A stretch of 64,000 nt of DNA from Meiothermus sp. Pnk-1 (GTDB lineage: Bacteria; Deinococcota; Deinococci; Deinococcales; Thermaceae). This document shows, in pieces, positions 24,421 through 54,111 of the stretch (within the stretch, counting starts at the first letter, position 1; the number at the start of each line of letters is the position of its first letter). A program made the translations under genes and the position numbers. Location of the stretch: NCBI RefSeq assembly GCF_003226535.1, contig NZ_QKOB01000002.1, positions 310,001-374,000 of the forward strand, in the 5' to 3' direction. The notes beneath the pieces are model-generated. The model made no database searches. It was not told the DNA's origin and worked only from the letters and a program-made list of their open reading frames with translations.

Positions 24421-24596
24421 AAAAGGGCACCCGCGTAGAAGACAAAGCCCCAGGTCTGTGGGAGCAGGTCCGAAAACTTACGAGCGCCGCGGGCAACGCG
24501 GGCTTGGATCTCGAGCTCGCCCGCCCGCAGCGCGCAGCGGAGGGTGAGGCGCAGCTTCCTCTGGTCGATGGGCTTGCAGGTGGCTGAGTCGCTTTC
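24417..24596 (-). pseudogene. Orphan coding frame after the RND gene, no visible start codon
   Basis: Directly after the RND stop, in another frame, 59 sense codons run to a TAA at 24417-24419. The reading has GC-rich third positions like its neighbours and includes RKLRLTLRCALRAGELEIQ and ends LPQTWGFVFYAGALL. No ATG, GTG or TTG opens this frame near the junction; the only ATG (24598) belongs to a different frame with poor protein character. It may be the surviving end of a frameshifted gene, or a small gene with an unusual start. Confidence 0.35.
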
Positions 24597-27500
24597 ATTC
24601 GCTTCCCATAGCGCCGGCCGGGGCCGGGGCGGGCCAGCGCTCCTGGCGCAGCTTCGCGTAGCGCCGCCGCTCGAATAGGTAAAATGCCGCCGGGACCACG
24701 AACAACGTCAGGAAAGTCGAGGTCGTCACCCCCCCCAGGATGATGATGCCCAAGGGCTTGCGGAACTCCGAGCCCTCCCCGCTGGACAGGATCAGTGGGA
24801 TGGAGATGATGAGCACGGTCAGGGTGGTCATCAGGATGGGGCGCAGCCGTAGCCGGGCGGCCTCCACCAGGGCGTCGAAGAGGGGCTTCTCCTGGGCTCG
24901 GCGCACCGCAAAGTCGAGCAGCAGGATGGCGTTTTTGGTGACCAGCCCGTTCAAGAGCACCAGCCCCAGCACGCTCACCACGTCCAGGCCGCTGCGAAAG
25001 ATGAATAGAGCCCAGAAAGCGCCCACCAAAGCCAGCGGGATCGGCACGAGCAGGTACAGCGGGTAGCGGAAGGTGTTGAACTGGCTAGCGATCACCAGGT
25101 AGTTGAGCAGCACCGAGAGCCCAAAAGCGATGGGCAAAGCCCCGAAGAGGTCCCCGGCGAAGGCGGTGCCACCGGTGCTCTCGAGCCGTACCCCGTCTTT
25201 GAGCACCCCTTGGCGCTCGAGCTCGCGCTGGATCTGCTGGCTGTACTGGAGCACCCCGCCGCTGGCCCCGGGGGCCAGGTTGGCGGTGATCCCGGCGGAG
25301 AAAGCTTGGTTGTTGCGGGCCAGGGTGGCGGGGCTCTGGCGGCTCTCGAAGCGGCTCAAGAGCGAAAGCGGGAGGGATTGTCGCAGGGCCTGAGAGAACA
25401 CCGGCAGCGATTGGAGCGCGCTTTGGTCAGGGATCAGGGCTGGGTCGGCCCTGACCACGATGGGAGTTTCCTCGCCCCCGGCGCGCAGCTTACCCGCCTC
25501 TACGCCGGCGTTGTAGATCCTCAGGGTCTGCGCCAGGTCGCTGGGGGTCAGGCCGGTGCCCACCAAGGCGGCTTGGTTGGGGACCAGCACCCGCTCGGCG
25601 GTCTTCTCGGACAGCGAGCTGCTGATGTTGGTGAGGGCGGGGATGCCCTTGAGGATCTCCAGCGCCCGGTCGTTGCGCTCCTCCAACAAGGCCTGGGTGG
25701 GAGCCGAGAGGGTAAACTGGAAGTCATCGCCGGCGGGCCCTCCCTCTAACGCTTTGACCTTGAGTTCGGCCTCGGGGTGCTTGGCCAGCAGGCCCTGCAA
25801 CGCGGCCTCGAGCTTGGGCACGATGGCGTAGATGTTCTCGCGCCGATGCCTCTCCACCAGGTTCACGGTCAGGTCGGAGCGCTCGGGGTTGCCGGTGCCG
25901 ATGCCGATGCTGGAGGCCCCCACCTCGGTCAGCACCTCCTTGACGTAAGGCTGGGCCAGCAAGTAATCCTCGAGGCGGCGGGTAAGCCGATCGGTCTCCG
26001 AGAGCGCGGTGCCTTTGGGCAGCTTGAGCTGGATGTTGATGATGCCGCCATCCGATTTGGGCGTAAAGTTGAAGGGAATCTGCGGGGCCACTACAGCTAT
26101 CGAAAGGAAGAAGAGGATCCCCGCCGCGAGCACCAGCGGGCTGCGCGGCAAAAGCCAGGCTAGACTCCGAGAGTAGCCGTTGCGTAGCCGGTCAAAGCCC
26201 CCCTCGGAGGCGCGGTGAAGGCTGAGGGCGATGGCCCCTAAGACGCTGCCCACCAAAGCCCCCAGCCAGCGCAAAGGGGCCAGCAGCAACCGCAGGGGGG
26301 TCAAGACGGCGTTGAGCAGCTTGGCCGAAGGCGGGTAGCGGGGGTCGCGGTAAACCTCCGCTCGGATCGCCCAGGCGAGGTCTTTCCCAAACTCCCGCGC
26401 CCGCTTTCCTACCTGTGACCACGAGGGCGGGATGGGGTCGGGCAGGTAAGCCAGGCGAACCGTGAGGAAGAAGAGGGCCTCGAGCCAGCTGAAGAAGATC
26501 GCCGCCGCCAGCACCAACCCGAACTCGCGGAAAAACTGCCCCACCACGCCCGGTAGGAAGCTGATGGGCAGGAAAACCGCCAACAGCGAGAGGGTGGCCG
26601 CCGATACCGCCGAGAGCACCTCGGTGCTGCCTTTGAGCACCGCGTCCTTGAGGCTATAGGGTTGGCTGAGGTAGGCCTCAATGCCTTCGGTAACGGTTCT
26701 TACGTCGTCAGCGGAGAGCAGATCGCCGCTCCCTTTGCTCACCGCCTCGTGCAGCGAATACCCCTGGCCCTGGTAGCGGGCGATGTGCTCGGTCAGGACG
26801 GCGGCGTCTTCGCGGGACAGGAATCCCTGGGTGGCCTTCATTACCGCATCGGGGAGGCTATAGTTCTGGTGGCGGTAGCGGTCGATGTTTTCCGCCACCA
26901 CAATGGAGTCGTCCACCACGATGCCCACCGCTACGATGATGGCGAGCAGGCTGATGATGTTGAAGGTGAAGCCCAACAGCCCAAAGATCAGCAAAGCCCC
27001 GGCCAGGGTAATGGGGATGGCCAGCACCACCGAGAACACCGAGTTGAGCTTGCCTAAAAAGATCAGCACGATGAACGAGACCACTGCGACCACCAAAAAA
27101 ACCTCTTTCCAGGTGTCGTTGACGGTGGCTTCGATGAAGGTGGTGGTGTCGTTGGTGACGCTTACCCGGTAGCCCGGAGGCAGGCTGGTATTGGCGAGGG
27201 TTTTCTTGATCCCTTGGGCCACCGCCACCGCGTTGGCGTCGGGGGTTTTGCGGACGTTCAGGAGTACGATGGGCTGCCCGGAGAGCCGGGTATAGCGAGT
27301 GGCTTCAGCCTGGCTATCGCGCACGCTGGCGACATCGGAGACTTTGAGCCCGCGCCCCGGATCCACCAGGATCTGGGCTACGTCCACGGCGCTCTGGGGC
27401 TGGTTGCGCAGGCTGTAGAGCAAGCGCTGCCCGCTTTGTTCTTGGCTTCCTGCTGGAACTGCTAGGGCCGAGGCCTGTAGCGCGGCCACCACCTGGTTAG

Positions 27501-28107
27501 CCGAGAGGCCGTAGTCGGCGAGTTTCCAGGGGTCCACCAGCACTTGGATCTGGCGTTTGGGGTTGCCCTCCACCTGGAGATCGGCCACCCCGTTTACCAG
27601 TTGCAAGCGGGGCTTGAGTTGGTTCTCTACCCAATCCGCCACGCTTCTGAGGTCGCGCCCCTCCGCCGAAACCGCCACGCTCAGGATGGGCTGTGAAGCC
27701 GGGTCGAACTTCTGCACCACCGGGGCCTCCGCGTCGCGGGGGAGCTGCCCGCGCACCGCCGCGATCCGCTGGGAAACGTCGGTGGCGGCTTGGTTTACGG
27801 AGGTGCCGTACTTGAACTGGGCGATCACCAAGGAGAACCCCTCGCTGGATTCCGAGGCGATCTGGTCAATGCCCGAGAGGGTCGAGAGGGCTTCTTCGAT
27901 AGGCTTGGAGATCTGGCTTTCCACCTCTTCCGGACCCGCGCCCGGGTAGGTGGTGCTGATAGCGACCACGGGAAACTCGAACTTAGGCAGCAGGTCTACC
28001 CCCAAGCTTCTGGCCGCCAGCAACCCAAACAGCACCAGCGCCAAAAACGCCGCGGTAGAGAAGACGAAGCGCTCGACGAAGAACTTGACGATGGGGCTTT
28101 CACGCAC
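24595..28107 (-). CDS. RND multidrug efflux permease (HAE1/AcrB-like) with triplicated loop
   Basis: A 1170-aa proton-driven inner-membrane pump, about 130 residues longer than AcrB. TM1 is at residues 11-32; periplasmic porter domains follow; TM2-TM6 begin at about 335. The proton-relay aspartate pair is in VGIVVDDSIVVAEN (residues 394-407). Immediately after it, residues 406-507 consist of three consecutive 34-residue units where the family has one. A second enlargement lies in the cytoplasmic loop before TM7 (about 555-650). The second half repeats the porter/TM plan and ends with a TM10-like GLVTKNAILLLDFAVR segment. It is the last gene of the efflux operon, 21 bases after the adaptor gene. 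Confidence 0.93.
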   Translation of the reverse strand: MRESPIVKFFVERFVFSTAAFLALVLFGLLAARSLGVDLLPKFEFPVVAISTTYPGAGPEEVESQISKPIEEALSTLSGIDQIASESSEGFSLVIAQFKYGTSVNQAATDVSQRIAAVRGQLPRDAEAPVVQKFDPASQPILSVAVSAEGRDLRSVADWVENQLKPRLQLVNGVADLQVEGNPKRQIQVLVDPWKLADYGLSANQVVAALQASALAVPAGSQEQSGQRLLYSLRNQPQSAVDVAQILVDPGRGLKVSDVASVRDSQAEATRYTRLSGQPIVLLNVRKTPDANAVAVAQGIKKTLANTSLPPGYRVSVTNDTTTFIEATVNDTWKEVFLVVAVVSFIVLIFLGKLNSVFSVVLAIPITLAGALLIFGLLGFTFNIISLLAIIVAVGIVVDDSIVVAENIDRYRHQNYSLPDAVMKATQGFLSREDAAVLTEHIARYQGQGYSLHEAVSKGSGDLLSADDVRTVTEGIEAYLSQPYSLKDAVLKGSTEVLSAVSAATLSLLAVFLPISFLPGVVGQFFREFGLVLAAAIFFSWLEALFFLTVRLAYLPDPIPPSWSQVGKRAREFGKDLAWAIRAEVYRDPRYPPSAKLLNAVLTPLRLLLAPLRWLGALVGSVLGAIALSLHRASEGGFDRLRNGYSRSLAWLLPRSPLVLAAGILFFLSIAVVAPQIPFNFTPKSDGGIINIQLKLPKGTALSETDRLTRRLEDYLLAQPYVKEVLTEVGASSIGIGTGNPERSDLTVNLVERHRRENIYAIVPKLEAALQGLLAKHPEAELKVKALEGGPAGDDFQFTLSAPTQALLEERNDRALEILKGIPALTNISSSLSEKTAERVLVPNQAALVGTGLTPSDLAQTLRIYNAGVEAGKLRAGGEETPIVVRADPALIPDQSALQSLPVFSQALRQSLPLSLLSRFESRQSPATLARNNQAFSAGITANLAPGASGGVLQYSQQIQRELERQGVLKDGVRLESTGGTAFAGDLFGALPIAFGLSVLLNYLVIASQFNTFRYPLYLLVPIPLALVGAFWALFIFRSGLDVVSVLGLVLLNGLVTKNAILLLDFAVRRAQEKPLFDALVEAARLRLRPILMTTLTVLIISIPLILSSGEGSEFRKPLGIIILGGVTTSTFLTLFVVPAAFYLFERRRYAKLRQERWPAPAPAGAMGSE
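26587..26892 (-). repeat. Three tandem 34-codon repeats inside the RND permease
   Basis: Units of residues 406-439, 440-473 and 474-507 share the pattern E-x-I-x-x-Y-x4-YSL-x-[DE]-AV-x-K-x5-LS, each exactly 34 residues. Only the third continues into the hydrophobic TM5 stretch; units 1 and 2 carry hydrophilic SREDAAVLT and SADDVRTVT at the equivalent place. Confidence 0.9.
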
Positions 28108-28128: not shown

Positions 28129-29358
28129 TCATCGGACCACCTCGAGCGCATCCCCCTCGCGCAGGCTAGCGGGGATGGGGAAGACCACCTGGCGGCCCGC
28201 CTCTAGACCGCGCAGCGCCACCTGATTGCCGTTATCGCCGAGGATCTGAACCTCCACTGCCTTGGCTCGACCGCCTTCTGCCAGCATCACCGCTGGCTTT
28301 TCTCCCGGCAGCAAAGCCCCGCTGGGCACGACCACCCCTTTGGCCAGCTCGAGGGTATAGCGCACGCTGGCGCTGGCCCCGGGCGGCAGGGGGGCTTGGA
28401 GGGTAGCTACCGCTTCCACCAGGCGGTCGGTGCCGGGGACTTGGCTGGTGCGGCTGAGGCGGGCGTAATAGGTCTGACCGCCGTAGTCGAGGTTCAACCC
28501 GCTTCCCAAGGCCAGCTTGGCCGCTTCCGAGGGAGGGAGGCGGAACTTGGCCTCGAGCCGGCGGACATCGGCCAGCCGGAACACCCGCGAGCCCGCCGCC
28601 ACGAACTCCCCGGGGTTGACGTACACCTCGGCTACCACCCCGGCGAAAGGGGCCCTGACCTCGGTGTCGGCTAAAGCGCGCCGGGCCTGGGCCAGTTGGG
28701 CTTCGGCCTGCTGGACCTGCACCCGCAACAAAGCCAAATCTTCACGGTTGGCCCGCTGGGCCCGCTCGAGCGCCTCGCGGGCGTTATCGGCATTGGACTT
28801 GGCCTGGCCCAGCGCGGCCTCCAGGCTGGTGAGGTCGACCTGGGCTATGGCCCCCGCCCGGAAGAGCTCCTGGCCTTCGCTATAGCGGCGCTGGGCCACC
28901 CGCAGGTTGGCCTCCGCCGCCTCGAGGGCGGCTTGCAGCGAAGCCAGGCTGCCCTGGTTGGAACGCTGCGCCCGCTCGAGGTTGATCTTGGCCTGTTCCA
29001 GCCCCAGCTCGGCGTTTTGTACCGCGGTGCGGGCGGTCGCGTCGTCGAGGCGCAGCACGATCTGGCCCGCCGCGACCCGGCTGCCCGCCTCGACCAGCAC
29101 CGCCAGCACCTTGCCGCTGGCGCTCGAGGCCACGTTGCTCTCTCGCGCCGGAGCCAGGGTGGCCCCCACGGTCCGGCTGGCCCTAAGGACGCCTTCCTTG
29201 GCCACTATCACCCGCACTTTGGTGACCCGGGGAGCGCTTTCGGCGCTCGCCGGGGTGGACTCGGCGTTTCCCCGACGGTTGTTACACCCCGCCAGCAACA
29301 CAGCGGCCACCGCGAGCAGAACCAGCGCCTTTAGCCGTTTGCGTTTGCTGCTTTGCAT
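28129..29358 (-). CDS. RND periplasmic adaptor (membrane fusion) lipoprotein
   Basis: A 409-aa HlyD/AcrA-family protein that bridges the inner-membrane pump and the outer-membrane channel. The signal peptide ends in the lipobox LLAGC at about residues 20-25, so the mature protein is probably lipid-anchored. It has the lipoyl halves (SASGKVLAVLVEAGSRVAAGQIVLRLD near 75, and VRAPFAGVVAEVYVNPGEFV near 235) flanking a long alpha-helical hairpin with many alanine/glutamine heptads, then beta-barrel and membrane-proximal domains. It starts two bases after tolC-2 and lies 21 bases before the pump gene. Confidence 0.93.
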   Translation of the reverse strand: MQSSKRKRLKALVLLAVAAVLLAGCNNRRGNAESTPASAESAPRVTKVRVIVAKEGVLRASRTVGATLAPARESNVASSASGKVLAVLVEAGSRVAAGQIVLRLDDATARTAVQNAELGLEQAKINLERAQRSNQGSLASLQAALEAAEANLRVAQRRYSEGQELFRAGAIAQVDLTSLEAALGQAKSNADNAREALERAQRANREDLALLRVQVQQAEAQLAQARRALADTEVRAPFAGVVAEVYVNPGEFVAAGSRVFRLADVRRLEAKFRLPPSEAAKLALGSGLNLDYGGQTYYARLSRTSQVPGTDRLVEAVATLQAPLPPGASASVRYTLELAKGVVVPSGALLPGEKPAVMLAEGGRAKAVEVQILGDNGNQVALRGLEAGRQVVFPIPASLREGDALEVVR

Positions 29359-29360
29359 GG

Positions 29361-30419
29361 CTAGCGCCCCCCAGCATACAACCCGTACAGGGCGCGCAAG
29401 TAACTCCCCTGGGCTTGCAGGGCCGCCAGCTCCGCTTGCAGGGCGGCCAGCTCGGACTGGGCATAGGCCAGCGGGGAGATCAACCCCGAGTCGAGCCGGC
29501 GCTTATCGGCGGCCAGCTGCTCCCGGGCGTTTTGCAGCAGGGATTGCTGGATTCCCAGGGCCCGAAAGGCGTTTTGGGCCTGGGTATACAGGTTCTCATA
29601 CTGCAAGCTTAGCCCCCGGCGGATCTCGCGCAGGGCGGCCTCAGCCTGCTCGGCGCGGGCTTTGGCGGCTTCGATCTCGGCTTGGGCGGCGTAGCTGGGG
29701 TCGAGCAGCTCGAGCTGTAGCTTGGCCAGCTCGAGCCGTTGCTGGGCCTGCACCAGGTCCGGGGTTTGCTCGAGCAGGCTCTGTAGCAGGCTCCGCTCGG
29801 GCAGGGCTGGGGCTGGGGGAAGCGGGGCCAGCTCCGCGAACTCCCCTACCAAGCTGCGCAGGTTGCTGCGGGCGTTGGCCAGCCCCTGCTCGGCGAAGGC
29901 TTGGTTGCGCTGGGCGTCCTCCAGGCGGGCTTGGGCGTTTTTGCTCTCGAGCGCGGTGCCGGAACCGTTTTTCTGACGGATCTGGGCTACTTCGAGGTTA
30001 CGCTGGGCCAGCTCGGTGGACTTCTTGGCGAGCGCTACCTGTTGGAGGGCCTCGAGGACCTGGGTATAGGCCTGCACAATGCCGCTTTCGGCTTGGGCTT
30101 TGGCCCGGTTCAGGCTGGCCTGAGCCAGCGCCAGGCGCTGCTCGGCCTGGAGCCGCGCTGGGCGGGTCAGCAGGGGGTCGGCCAGGGTGCGTTGAAGATT
30201 GGCCTGGGCGTCGGCGAGTTCAGCTTGGGCGCTTTGCACCGGGGCTTGCTCGGCGGCCTTAGCCAGGGCGGCTTGGAGGGTGAGGGGCTGGGTCTGCTGC
30301 GCCAGGCCGGCGGCCAGCAGGGGGAAGCAGAAAACCAGCACGAGCTGACGGGGCGCGAACCGCACGGCTGGCGTTGGCTGCCGGTGTTCGATCTGGGCCG
30401 TTGGGCGTCGAGTATGCAT
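29361..30419 (-). CDS. TolC-family outer membrane efflux protein, second copy
   Basis: A 352-aa outer-membrane-factor homologue. An extended signal peptide (hydrophobic core LVLVFCFPLLAAGLAQ around residues 26-41) precedes alanine/glutamine/leucine-rich coiled-coil helices, arranged as two similar halves (the pattern AxxxxxAQAxLxxAxA recurs). It is shorter than TolC (about 470 aa) and shorter than its neighbour. The ATG at 30419 shares a base with the TGA of the upstream tolC (TGATG), indicating coupled translation. It may form mixed trimers with the neighbour or provide an alternative exit duct; this is inference. Confidence 0.85.
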   Translation of the reverse strand: MHTRRPTAQIEHRQPTPAVRFAPRQLVLVFCFPLLAAGLAQQTQPLTLQAALAKAAEQAPVQSAQAELADAQANLQRTLADPLLTRPARLQAEQRLALAQASLNRAKAQAESGIVQAYTQVLEALQQVALAKKSTELAQRNLEVAQIRQKNGSGTALESKNAQARLEDAQRNQAFAEQGLANARSNLRSLVGEFAELAPLPPAPALPERSLLQSLLEQTPDLVQAQQRLELAKLQLELLDPSYAAQAEIEAAKARAEQAEAALREIRRGLSLQYENLYTQAQNAFRALGIQQSLLQNAREQLAADKRRLDSGLISPLAYAQSELAALQAELAALQAQGSYLRALYGLYAGGR

Positions 30420-31759
30420 CACTTCACCTCGCTAAGGGGCAGGGCATAAAAGCGGTAGAGGTCGAGAAGGCGGGAGAGCCGGTTGAGGCTGGCTTGCTCG
30501 AGCGCAAGCCGGGCTTGGGCCAGCCCCAGTTCGGCCTGGAGGGTGGCCAGGGGGCTGGCGAGCCCCAGCCGTTCGCGTTCGCGGGCTTCGGCCAGGGTGC
30601 GCTCGGCATCTTGCAGGGCGGTTTGCGCCAGCCCTACCTGGGCCTCAGCCCCCTGTAAGGCCGATCGTAGCGAAGCTTCTTGCAAAGCGGCGGCGCGCTT
30701 GGCCGCCTCCAGGGCGGCCTGGGCCGCTTCGATCTGCTTGCGTCCAGCCTCCAGAGCGTCGAAGATGGCCGGGCTGAGGTTCACCGAAAGCCCGATCTGG
30801 AACTGGCTTTCCGGCTTTACCTGCCCGGTGGTGGTCGTAGGGGGGTTTTGATAGCTGTAGCCGACTTGGGGTTGCAGGGTGCGGCTGTTGAGGCTCAGGC
30901 TGAAGCTGTCGCGGGGCGAGGTGTTGTAGGTGTAGCTGGCCTGGGCCACCGGCCAGATGCCTCGCTCGGCGCGGGCGTAGTTGAGCTGGGCCTGCGCCAC
31001 TTGCAGCTCGGCCTGACGGACGCTAGGGGGGGTGACGGCTAGGGGAGGAGGGGGCTCGGGCAGCGCCCCCAGGGCTGCCGTTCCCAGCAAGTCGCTGAGG
31101 TTGCGCTGGGCTAGCTCGAGGTTGCGCTCCGCGTCTTCCACCTGGAGTTGGGCCTGGCGCAGCTGGGCCTGGGCCTGGCGCACTTCGGCGGGGCTGGCGG
31201 CCTCGCGCTGGGCGCGCAGCCGCACCGCCTCCAAGCTGGCTTGAGCCAACCGGGCTCCGCTTTGGGCGACTTCCAGCCCCACCTGGGCCAGCCGCACCCG
31301 GTAGGCCGCCTCCAGGGCCTGGGCCTCGAGGCTGGCCTGGGTTTGGCGCAGCCCCAAGGCGGCCTGCTCGACCCCCAGCCGGGCCTGGGCGATGGCGTCG
31401 GCGGTATCGCCGAAAGGAAAAGGGGTGAAGGCCAGCCCCACCGAGGCGCTTACCGCCTGGGTGTCGGGGATGGGGTCTTTAAAATGGAGCCAGGCGTTAC
31501 CTCCTTGGGCTTGCAGGCTCACCGGACTCTGCTGCGCCCGCAGCTGGGCTTGGGCAGCCTCGAGCGCCAGCCGGGCCTGGACGAGCGAGGGATGGTTTTG
31601 CAGCGGGGCGTAGAAGCTCTGCCCCAGGCCGCAGGCCAAAAGCTGGATGCCGAAAGCCAGGACAAAGGAAGGCGTACGTCGTACCCTATAGGCTCGTTGC
31701 TTTTCGACGCAAGACCTAGGACGTACGACGTATGGCGCGAATGCCCTGATCGCCCTCAC
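30419..31759 (-). CDS. TolC-family outer membrane efflux protein, first copy
   Basis: An outer-membrane channel protein of about 446 aa. A hydrophobic signal core (SFVLAFGIQLLACGLGQ) is followed by two repeats of helical hairpins, with short barrel segments around QASYTYNTSPRDSFSLSLN and QIGLSVNLSPAIFDAL. The probable start is the GTG at 31759, which overlaps the marR stop as GTGA. That makes the first 26 or so residues an arginine-rich extension encoded by a copy of the dispersed repeat at 31671-31740. No ATG, GTG or TTG start closer to the signal core is visible. It is translationally linked to marR upstream and to tolC-2 downstream. Confidence 0.83.
   Translation of the reverse strand: MRAIRAFAPYVVRPRSCVEKQRAYRVRRTPSFVLAFGIQLLACGLGQSFYAPLQNHPSLVQARLALEAAQAQLRAQQSPVSLQAQGGNAWLHFKDPIPDTQAVSASVGLAFTPFPFGDTADAIAQARLGVEQAALGLRQTQASLEAQALEAAYRVRLAQVGLEVAQSGARLAQASLEAVRLRAQREAASPAEVRQAQAQLRQAQLQVEDAERNLELAQRNLSDLLGTAALGALPEPPPPLAVTPPSVRQAELQVAQAQLNYARAERGIWPVAQASYTYNTSPRDSFSLSLNSRTLQPQVGYSYQNPPTTTTGQVKPESQFQIGLSVNLSPAIFDALEAGRKQIEAAQAALEAAKRAAALQEASLRSALQGAEAQVGLAQTALQDAERTLAEARERERLGLASPLATLQAELGLAQARLALEQASLNRLSRLLDLYRFYALPLSEVK
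31671..31740. repeat. Fragment of heptad repeat element inside the tolC N-terminus
   Basis: It contains GGCGTACGTCGTAC at 31671-31684 and 7-bp units ACGCAAG, ACCTAGG, ACGTACG, ACGTATG from about 31707 to 31734. These match units in the intergenic elements at 37.4 and 39.2 kb. Unlike those copies it is read through as codons. Confidence 0.65.
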
Positions 31760-32202
31760 TCCTTCACCGCCTGGGGTTCCAACAATTTCCGATAGCTCTT
31801 GCACAGCATCTCGATCTCCTTTGAACTGAGGCGGGAATACCGCTCCCGCCAGACTTCCCGCCAGCTCTTGCGCAGCCGCTCGAGGAAAGCCCGGCCTTCC
31901 TCGGTGAGCAGTATGCGTACCTGCCTTCGGTCTTTGCTGTCCAGCTCGCGGCGTACCCAGCCCCGTTCCTCCAGCCCGGCCAACAGCTGAGAGACCCCCG
32001 AGGGCGAAACGTCCAGCACGAAGGCCAGGCTCGAGGGCTGCTCGATTCCCTCCCGCACCGACATCAAGGCGAAGGCCTGCATTGGCGAAATGCCTAAGGG
32101 CTCAAACGCCCGCTGCTGGTCAATCCGGAACTGCCACACCAGCCGCAGGGTGAGCCGTTCCAGGGCGTCCAAGGCAGCGTCGCTGAGATACTTCATACGC
32201 AT
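31756..32202 (-). CDS. MarR-family transcriptional regulator
   Basis: A 148-aa winged-helix DNA-binding protein, heading the efflux operon and therefore its probable local repressor. The helix-turn-helix is at about residues 54-82 (QPSSLAFVLDVSPSGVSQLLAGLEERG), the wing has the family signature DSKDRRQVRILLTEEGRAFLERL at 88-110, and N- and C-terminal helices provide the dimer interface. Two in-frame ATGs (32202 and 32196) are possible; a TAATAT box nine bases before 32196 favours the second. The start region is covered by a 22-bp palindrome suited to autoregulation. Confidence 0.9.
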   Translation of the reverse strand: MRMKYLSDAALDALERLTLRLVWQFRIDQQRAFEPLGISPMQAFALMSVREGIEQPSSLAFVLDVSPSGVSQLLAGLEERGWVRRELDSKDRRQVRILLTEEGRAFLERLRKSWREVWRERYSRLSSKEIEMLCKSYRKLLEPQAVKE

Positions 32203-37200: not shown

Positions 37201-37303
37201 AGGGATTTATTATTCCGCATCGAAGCGCCGGGCTTGGGAGTTGGGAGACATTTACACGTTTCGCCGCACAGCGGTGCCCGGGCGCGCGGATGCCAGGAGT
37301 GCG

Positions 37304-37517
37304 TCCTACGTTGAACGTCATACGTCGTACGAAGGGGATCGTCCCCTAGGTGTACAGCCATAGGCTGTCCCGAGACGCCACCCCACGGCTTACGCCGAAA
37401 CAAGCGTCTCACTTCGCTCGGCGAAAGAAGCGTCAAAAAACCCCCGCGTTTAGCGTCTGGCGTTTTGCGTATGGCGTACGACGTACGACGCAAGTTGCGT
37501 TTCGCGTACGACGAGAG
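37304..37517. repeat. Heptad/stem-loop repeat element B
   Basis: The left arm has four phased 7-bp units (TCCTACG, TTGAACG, TCATACG, TCGTACG; 37304-37331). One stem-loop unit follows, whose ACAGCC (37354-37359) and GGCTGT (37363-37368) enclose a three-base loop. The right arm has seven phased units from GCGTTTA at 37446 to ACGCAAG at 37494 and three more after a two-base slip. The 37374-37445 middle has a TTCGC/GCGAA hairpin and two AAGCGTC copies. It fills most of the gene-free stretch 37201-37550; I see no gene there. Confidence 0.75.
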
Positions 37518-39076: not shown

Positions 39077-39110
39077 AGGTCTGGTAACTTGATTTGTGCT
39101 GACTCAGACG

Positions 39111-39355
39111 TCGTACGTCGAACGTCATACGTCATACGAAGGGGATCGGTCCCTCGGGTGTACGGGCGTAGCCCGTCCCGATAGGGGATCGTCCTCAGCG
39201 TTTAGCGTCTGGCGTTTTGCGTATTGCGTATGACGTACGACGTAGGACGTATACCAACCCCACCCTAGCCCTCCCCTGCTAGGGGAGGGAGCACCCCGCG
39301 TTTGGCGTAAGACGTACAACGTACGACGTATGACCTAAGTCGCGTCTTGCGTTAA
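39111..39355. repeat. Heptad/stem-loop repeat element C
   Basis: The left arm has four phased 7-bp units (TCGTACG, TCGAACG, TCATACG, TCATACG; 39111-39138). A stem-loop unit follows with ACGGGC (39162-39167) and GCCCGT (39171-39176). Eight phased units run from 39198 to 39253, then a perfect 9-bp hairpin with arms CCCTCCCCT (39269-39277) and AGGGGAGGG (39281-39289), then at least six more phased units from 39298. The array runs straight into the promoter of the next gene. The whole 39077-39365 gap is occupied by it. Confidence 0.8.
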
Positions 39356-47664: not shown

Positions 47665-47880
47665 GGTAGATTCCCTTCGGGACAGCCTACGGCTGTACAC
47701 CCAGAGGTAGATTCCCCGGCGGGACGGCCTACACCCGTACGACCCCACCCCAACCCTCCCCTGCTAGGGGAGGGGGTATTAGCTTTCCTGGCTCCCGGCC
47801 TGGTCGGCTACGGTCAAGGCGAAGGGTACAGCATAAAGGGGTATGATCCCCTGCGTTTAGCGTACGACGTGCGTCATTCC
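47665..47880. repeat. Heptad/stem-loop repeat element D
   Basis: Two tandem stem-loop units: the first with ACAGCC (47682-47687) and GGCTGT (47691-47696); the second, around 47722-47737, with a decayed stem. Then the 9-bp hairpin CCCTCCCCT/AGGGGAGGG (47754-47774), a non-repeat spacer, and phased 7-bp units GCGTTTA, GCGTACG, ACGTGCG, TCATTCC (47853-47880). It occupies most of the gene-free stretch 47559-47903 and ends 10 bases before the globin promoter box. Confidence 0.75.
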
Positions 47881-53871: not shown

Positions 53872-54111
53872 CCCCAGCAGGGGAGGGGGTATACGTCGTA
53901 CGCAATACGCAAAACGCCAGACGCAAAAAAGGGACGATCCCCTACGGGACGGGCTACGCCCGTACACCCGGGGTAGATTCCCTATCGGGACCGGCGGAGC
54001 CGGTACACCTAGGGGACGATCCCCTATCGGGACGGAGCAAGCTCCGTACACCTAGGGGACCGATCCCCTTCGTATGACGTATGACGCACGACGTTTGCCA
54101 TAAGACGTACT
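53872..54111. repeat. Heptad/stem-loop repeat element F with three tandem units
   Basis: A degenerate half of the GGGGAGGG hairpin, then phased 7-bp units (ATACGTC, GTACGCA, ATACGCA, AAACGCC, AGACGCA; 53891-53925). Three stem-loop units with a period of 41-42 bases follow: stems ACGGGC/GCCCGT (53949-53963), ACCGGC/GCCGGT (53990-54004) and ACGGAGC/GCTCCGT (54032-54047). A half unit and six phased units (54070-54111) close it. Each of the three stems differs, yet every one is fully complementary. It occupies most of the gene-free stretch 53778-54159. Confidence 0.82.

Follow-up and report, generated by a model that had tools for sequence, protein, structure and literature searches.

Palindromic repeats inside genes are a known phenomenon, and the closest described cases are the intragenic REPs and the RPEs of Rickettsia. 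In the REP study (Di Nocera et al. 2013, PMC3733652), which describes intragenic REPs from several bacteria, GTAG- and CGTC-tagged units are 20–40 bp long, with stems of 5–13 bp (GTAG) or 8–9 bp (CGTC) and one tagged end, and the CGTC REPs have no dedicated transposase. In some genes dimers or grouped repeats encode 20 to 30 residues, and amino acids that a repeat encodes at the end of a protein may have no effect on its function (PMC3733652). The names Meiothermus, Thermus and Deinococcus do not occur in the text of that article. The RPEs, elements of about 100–150 bp, are inserted in protein genes with the frame kept (PMC10969869, PMC3767692); in R. conorii, genes harbour almost half of the copies (PMC10969869). 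A REP survey reports 3,149 REPs and 482 RITs in Calidithermus roseus; the available part of that survey (PMC12306157) contains no description of the heptad repeat family with which we are concerned, and none was found in the open-access PMC literature searched. The tolC case reported below is an instance of the known phenomenon, in a heptad family that we did not find described.

All coordinates are positions in the window, by which we mean the whole 64,000-nt stretch of DNA analysed (contig NZ_QKOB01000002.1, 310,001 to 374,000); G000 denotes the source genome. The features on which the analysis is based are the following.

24595–28107, minus strand: AcrB-type RND pump gene (Pfam)
28129–29358, minus strand: HlyD-type membrane fusion protein gene (Pfam)
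29361–30422, minus strand: second outer membrane efflux protein gene (OEP; Pfam), called oep2 below
30419–31759, minus strand: tolC, a 446-aa outer membrane efflux protein with a partly repeat-derived leader (Pfam OEP, E 4.1e-35)
31673–31734, minus strand: 62-nt imperfect palindrome with heptad (ACGTACG-type) arms, a dispersed-repeat copy forming tolC codons 9–29 in frame
31675–31684: left arm TACGTCGTAC, 100% complementary to 31723–31732
31723–31732: right arm GTACGACGTA, complement of the left arm
31756–31759, minus strand: GTGA, in which the start codon of tolC and the stop codon of marR overlap; the arrangement is identical in G001
31756–32202, minus strand: marR-family regulator gene, upstream of tolC (Pfam)
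37301–37494: composite copy of the heptad family, outside called genes
39105–39339: composite copy of the heptad family, outside called genes
53890–54094: composite copy of the heptad family, outside called genes

Along the minus strand the gene order is marR, tolC, second OEP gene, hlyD-type and acrB-type, and all five genes are supported by Pfam. TolC is a member of the OEP domain family (PF02321, 121.7 bits against a cut-off of 22, in two stretches). The locus has the same Pfam OEP domain and MarR/HlyD/AcrB order as TolC/OEP proteins of RND operons, and differs from them in that the leader is partly repeat-encoded. The two OEP genes form a tandem pair at 29361–31759 within one RND cluster and belong to a block that is collinear between the source genome and M. 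silvanus. The tolC protein translated from GTG 31759 begins (M)RAIRAFAPYVVRPRSCVEKQRAYRVRRTPSFVLAFGIQLLACGLGQSFYAPL..., and the peptide VRAIRAFAPYVVR... is a stretch of its predicted leader. Two in-frame start codons lie 5' of the signal core, GTG 31759 and GTG 31804, the latter within marR. The first ATG, GTG or TTG that follows GTG 31759 in the tolC frame is the TTG of codon 41, within the hydrophobic core, which was identified by eye and belongs to a putative export signal. The 18 bases before GTG 31759 gave a predicted pairing of −11.7 kcal/mol with an assumed 16S tail sequence, and the G001 start gave −10.8 kcal/mol.

Between this start codon and the signal core lies the palindrome, whose arms (31675–31684 and 31723–31732) are perfectly complementary across 10 nt. 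An 86-nt piece containing it has a predicted fold of −31 kcal/mol (z −3.4), which none of 200 shuffles equalled. Counted from GTG 31759, the element extends from the second base of codon 9 to the third base of codon 29, and in the tolC frame it yields about 20 residues, YVVRPRSCVEKQRAYRVRRT, with six Arg, one Lys and one Glu. A pure heptad array in the same orientation as the tolC copy translates as YVVRRTS. Pure heptads lack stop codons in all six frames; the tolC element is stop-free in two of the three frames on the tolC strand and in one frame on the other. With respect to a possible MITE, the arms are the complementary pair given above, and inspection by eye of the inexact borders showed no target-site duplication. 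The initial annotation had described the sequence at 31671–31759 as a dispersed repeat that is translated as the N-terminus of a TolC protein, with no other start codon before the signal core and with about 25 arginine-rich residues encoded by the repeat. The sequence matches that description, and the palindrome, the frame and the excess of arm matches given below bear out the in-frame reading, as TTG41 inside the core does for the start codon. The repeat proper is confined to 31673–31734, and the arginine-rich stretch comprises about 20 residues, not 25.

The tolC element belongs to a dispersed repeat family. Across the whole source genome, the arm 12-mer GTACGACGTACG gave 138 + 102 matches at no more than one mismatch, compared with 6 + 4 for a reversed control; these 240 matches were counted strand-wise, and because the arm is near-palindromic some sites were counted on both strands. 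Counts of the orientation of heptad tracts are likewise ambiguous, pure heptads being near-palindromic. The best other match to the tolC right arm in the same genome had an E value of 5.9e-4 (106-base query, mainly via the heptad arms). Within the window, the 12-mers listed at two or fewer mismatches all fell inside repeat clusters except for one (51610), and the other clusters, at about 37.3, 39.1–39.3, 47.86, 49.4 and 53.9–54.1 kb, overlap no called gene. The three composite copies consist of heptad tracts around GGGGACGATCCCC-type palindromic cores, and the copy at 53890–54094 includes 3.3 tandem units, each of 41–42 nt, at 53931–54069. The heptad repeat has the general properties of REPs, being short, palindromic, multicopy and mostly extragenic, and like the intragenic REPs it is sometimes read as protein. 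It differs from them in its unit, which measures 62 nt and has heptad-periodic arms, whereas REP units measure 20–40 bp and have one tagged end. By eye, no one-ended GTAG or CGTC tag was found on the tolC element, and CGTC occurs inside the heptads.

For the comparison with relatives, we take, as a guess, group g3 to be Meiothermus in the narrow sense, g4 to be Thermus and g2 to be Calidithermus. The closest relative compared (G001), taken as Meiothermus (Allomeiothermus) silvanus, is the only other species of the genus included. The exact 12-mer ACGTACGACGTA is present in 5 of the 50 family genomes, with 52 occurrences in G000, 11 in G001, 136 in G002, 42 in G003 and a single isolated match in G011; this last match is the only exact arm 12-mer in the 46 genomes of g3, g4 and g5. 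All 50 family genomes contain a match to the TolC protein, and 30 of the best-matching loci were compared. A search for related loci in genome contigs returned one distant Gallionellaceae locus, which was uninformative.

In M. silvanus, tolC has the same start with the same 4-nt marR overlap, and its repeat-free leader MSTATRSALLVALGLQLGLAQG reaches the conserved F(Y/F)xPL anchor after 22 codons, compared with 48 in the source genome. Synteny extends over both flanks, and the interval between the aligned blocks is 171 nt in the source genome and 102 nt in M. silvanus, a difference of 69 nt. Because marR extends three codons further at its 3' end in M. silvanus, the tolC leader itself is 26 codons longer in the source genome; about 21 of these are accounted for by the palindrome, and about five lie outside it. 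When the 106-base tolC piece was searched against the M. silvanus genome, the matches were confined to arm-like sequence and short stretches of flank (best E 0.00116). The element is thus in frame inside a gene and missing at the same site of the orthologue, as is described for RPE-like insertions.

The leaders of the more distant orthologues vary widely in length. At 10 of the 15 g3 loci, the tolC start overlaps the stop codon that ends a 152–160-codon frame upstream, taken as marR, and the corresponding leaders have 20, 21, 25, 26, 32, 35, 36, 36, 42 and 51 codons; L018 and L021 have no start overlap, and L020, L025 and L026 are interrupted by contig ends. One of the 13 g4 loci has the overlap (29 codons), and the other 12 start 18–19 codons before the anchor. 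Within 200 bases upstream of the anchor, arm 12-mers at two or fewer mismatches numbered five in the source genome and zero in each of the 26 other orthologues with the full 200 bases, L020 being represented by only 69 bases (no match) and L025 and L026 being without leader DNA. Since repeat-free leaders of relatives range from 20 to 51 codons, a length of 48 codons is not extraordinary. The refuting observation named in the initial annotation, an equivalent N-terminal extension in relatives without the repeat, is thus half borne out: two repeat-free g3 leaders (42 and 51 codons) come near the 48 codons of the source genome, and M. silvanus has 22. Judged from these leader sequences, a long n-region appears to be ordinary among tolC orthologues, and the repeat origin is what is unusual.

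We consider it likely that the repeat was inserted into tolC after the split from M. silvanus, with the frame kept, the n-region enlarged and little effect on fitness. A copy of the heptad-armed palindrome would have entered the gene between the start codon and the signal core in the source lineage. The frame would have been kept because the net length change is divisible by three and the element contains no stop in that frame. Translation initiation would have remained unchanged at the GTG overlapping the marR stop, and the nascent chain would have gained about 20 mostly positively charged residues, which would form a larger n-region before a similar hydrophobic core. If this n-region is removed with the signal peptide, the mature efflux protein would be unaltered and the insertion close to neutral. 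Points against this reading are the five or so extra codons outside the palindrome, the inexact borders and the lack of a visible target-site duplication. We infer gain rather than loss of the repeat, continued export and cleavage, and neutrality; the repeat-derived leader is probably tolerated, not useful.

The opposite history, in which the extension is ancestral to the genus and the repeat was lost in M. silvanus, seems improbable to us. The polarity rests on outgroups, with one other species of the genus in the comparison, and the two repeat-free g3 leaders of 42 and 51 codons count against a gain in that the short leader of M. silvanus could be the derived one; that all three of the other compact palindromes compared are common to both species also fits a loss. 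On the other hand, a loss is difficult to reconcile with the single occurrence of the exact arm 12-mer in the g3, g4 and g5 genomes, with leaders in which, among the g3 and g4 loci examined, the arm is never found, and with flanks and start geometry that are intact in M. silvanus.

The initial annotation had proposed a recent insertion that lengthened a signal peptide. Insertion is retained as the best reading; the word recent is not, as what was observed is the absence of the copy from M. silvanus and the other orthologues compared, and other copies can be old. The three other compact palindromes that were compared all stand at the same sites in the source genome and in M. silvanus, and repeat copies can therefore predate the split of the two species. 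One of them, a compact heptad palindrome of 47 nt that overlaps no called gene (L099:1474–1520 / L138), has identical arms and three core changes in M. silvanus; the surrounding 1.6 kb is 92% identical, and the sharing of this site is suggestive only. The L052 palindrome is clearly at the same site in M. silvanus, and the L070 palindrome is degraded there. As for the mover, Y1 transposases were present in 5 of 11 genomes searched (G000–G003 and G053); G000–G003 are the four genomes rich in heptads (g1, g2), and G053 is the single positive among the seven others. The sole Y1 match of the source genome is not flanked by the heptad repeat, there being no arm 12-mer in the 3.4-kb locus around it (L135). 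Arm 12-mers lay beside Y1 at one of the five loci checked (L134), which leaves a Y1 transposase unsupported as the mover of the repeat.

We assign a low probability to the idea that the element is functional at tolC, its hairpin tuning translation or transcript processing or its heptads binding a protein. A stable hairpin is indeed predicted, beginning some 25 nt downstream of the first nucleotide of the start codon, and the fact that the two species share the positions of three further compact palindromes would be compatible with a function. However, the shared copies may reflect slow decay, one of them being degraded in M. silvanus, and the tolC site itself is not common to both species. Moreover, the GTG is predicted to be no less open than that of M. 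silvanus: the openness was 0.70, 0.72 and 0.69 in the source genome and 0.39, 0.44 and 0.49 in M. silvanus at 37, 55 and 65 °C, respectively. The stretch from −15 to +12 is predicted to be slightly less open than in M. silvanus at 37 °C (0.37 and 0.43), which counts against the insertion reading favoured above, and about equally open at 55 and 65 °C.

It is also unlikely that the insertion disabled the secretion or expression of TolC, leaving the second OEP to serve the pump and tolC as a young pseudogene. Such a loss would accord with the second OEP gene directly 3' of tolC and with a leader that is far longer and more charged than that of M. silvanus. The two-OEP block is collinear with M. 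silvanus, hence the second OEP is no new replacement, and the 446-codon frame of tolC is intact. The dN/dS ratio relative to M. silvanus was 0.148 for tolC (413 codons, from residue 31), compared with 0.128 for oep2, 0.177 for hlyD, 0.086 for acrB and 0.114 for marR. With 13 g3 outgroups, tolC changes at outgroup-invariant sites numbered 5 in the source genome only, 6 in M. silvanus only and 22 in both, and changes at sites with a majority of at least 70% numbered 10 and 11, respectively; these relative-rate counts average across the whole branch, and a late loss of function would escape them, as a very recent one would escape dN/dS. For oep2 the invariant-site changes were 1 (source genome), 2 (M. 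silvanus) and 21 (both), and the 70% majority changes were 6 and 8. The branch counts for tolC are thus similar in the two species, and by these measures the remainder of the gene appears to be under normal constraint, with no sign of decay.

Translation from a non-standard or late codon 3' of the repeat, with the element as a transcribed, untranslated hairpin between marR and tolC, also seems unlikely. It is true that most N-terminal intragenic repeats may be extragenic via misannotated starts, as the REP study cautions (PMC3733652), and that CTG34 and TTG41 are in frame downstream of the repeat. But tolC, in contrast to the cases of that warning, has no later common start before the core and shares its start with a relative, and Shine-Dalgarno-like pairing is missing before CTG34 and TTG41 (predicted 0.5 and −1.7 kcal/mol, against −11.7 at the GTG). 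A protein begun at codon 41 would reach the conserved FYAPL after about eight residues, and one begun at codon 34 would lack a charged n-region. The overlap-type start is common to M. silvanus and ten g3 orthologues.

A separate observation concerns the signal core. Codons 40–43 (31631–31642) read LLAC, where the M. silvanus orthologue has GLAQG instead. We take LLAC to be a lipobox-like motif, and TolC might be lipid-anchored in the source species.

To place the tolC copy within the family, repeat clusters, defined as at least two arm-like 12-mer matches, were surveyed in the window and in 60 stretches around 100 of the 240 arm matches, around all exact 12-mer places of the source genome and around some further matches. 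Of the 71 clusters in the source-genome DNA read, 67 are clear of called genes, though 85% of that DNA is called coding. The tolC copy is counted among the 67 because the codon-usage gene finder trimmed the repeat-derived leader off tolC. Of the 71 clusters we count 2 as protein-coding. Each lies at one end of its gene, the first in tolC and the second in a GNAT acetyltransferase (L064:3086–3730, G000:C16; family assigned by eye). In the latter, residues 170–214, the last 45, are repeat-encoded (L064:3593–3730), and the repeat copy in L110 reads 74–84% alike to this tail in that frame. Five GNAT homologues (G002, G003, G005, G011) end at most about nine residues from the matching (F/M)YK, close to the point at which the repeat begins; the G002 match extends to residue 196 only when read through a TGA, and no homologue was found in M. 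silvanus at E 1e-10. The likeness to RPEs is that a palindromic element lies within a protein gene, in tolC too with an intact frame; the difference is that heptad copies are coding in only these two clusters, both at gene ends.

The other clusters in contact with genes or open frames were set aside individually. Those touching called genes in L067 and L082 were, by eye, ordinary coding sequence resembling the arm, and that in L070 is followed by an ATG with a good ribosome site 3' of the repeat. L054 and L066 were not counted, as a start codon lies 3' of the repeat; another lies 5', so an N-terminal reading is possible. These two open frames across the repeat (L054:1474–1493 and L066:1474–1486), with starts on both sides, are possible repeat-derived protein starts. 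The open frames of L065 and L079 looked antisense to a real gene, and that of L095 has no start 5' of the repeat. The open-frame clusters at window position 47861 and in L047 (both), L069, L086 and L089 likewise have no start before the repeat, and the cluster at L064:5778 has one; in all of these a start lies further on after the repeat. In G002, 1 of 26 clusters touches a called gene (L123), with L120 and L111 among the others that have open frames; L123 was rejected as a coding repeat, since it precedes the ATG of what by eye is likely rapZ.

These findings call for caution in annotation, since a simple codon-usage gene finder lost the repeat-derived leader. A more far-reaching proposal, which is speculative and in our view unlikely to be correct, is that the heptad family, abundant in this genus and in a second one (g2), is raw material for new protein ends. 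Pure heptads being free of stop codons in all six frames, a copy that lands at the edge of a gene could come to be translated as a leader, as in tolC, or as a tail, as in the GNAT acetyltransferase, and the copy in tolC would now change how the pump is exported or expressed. The tolC leader is a clean case of a mostly non-coding palindromic repeat that has become part of a protein: the repeat is absent from the nearest relative compared, and no later common start codon precedes the core. It suggests where such insertions may survive, as the signal n-region is probably cleaved off and its length already varies between 20 and 51 codons among relatives.
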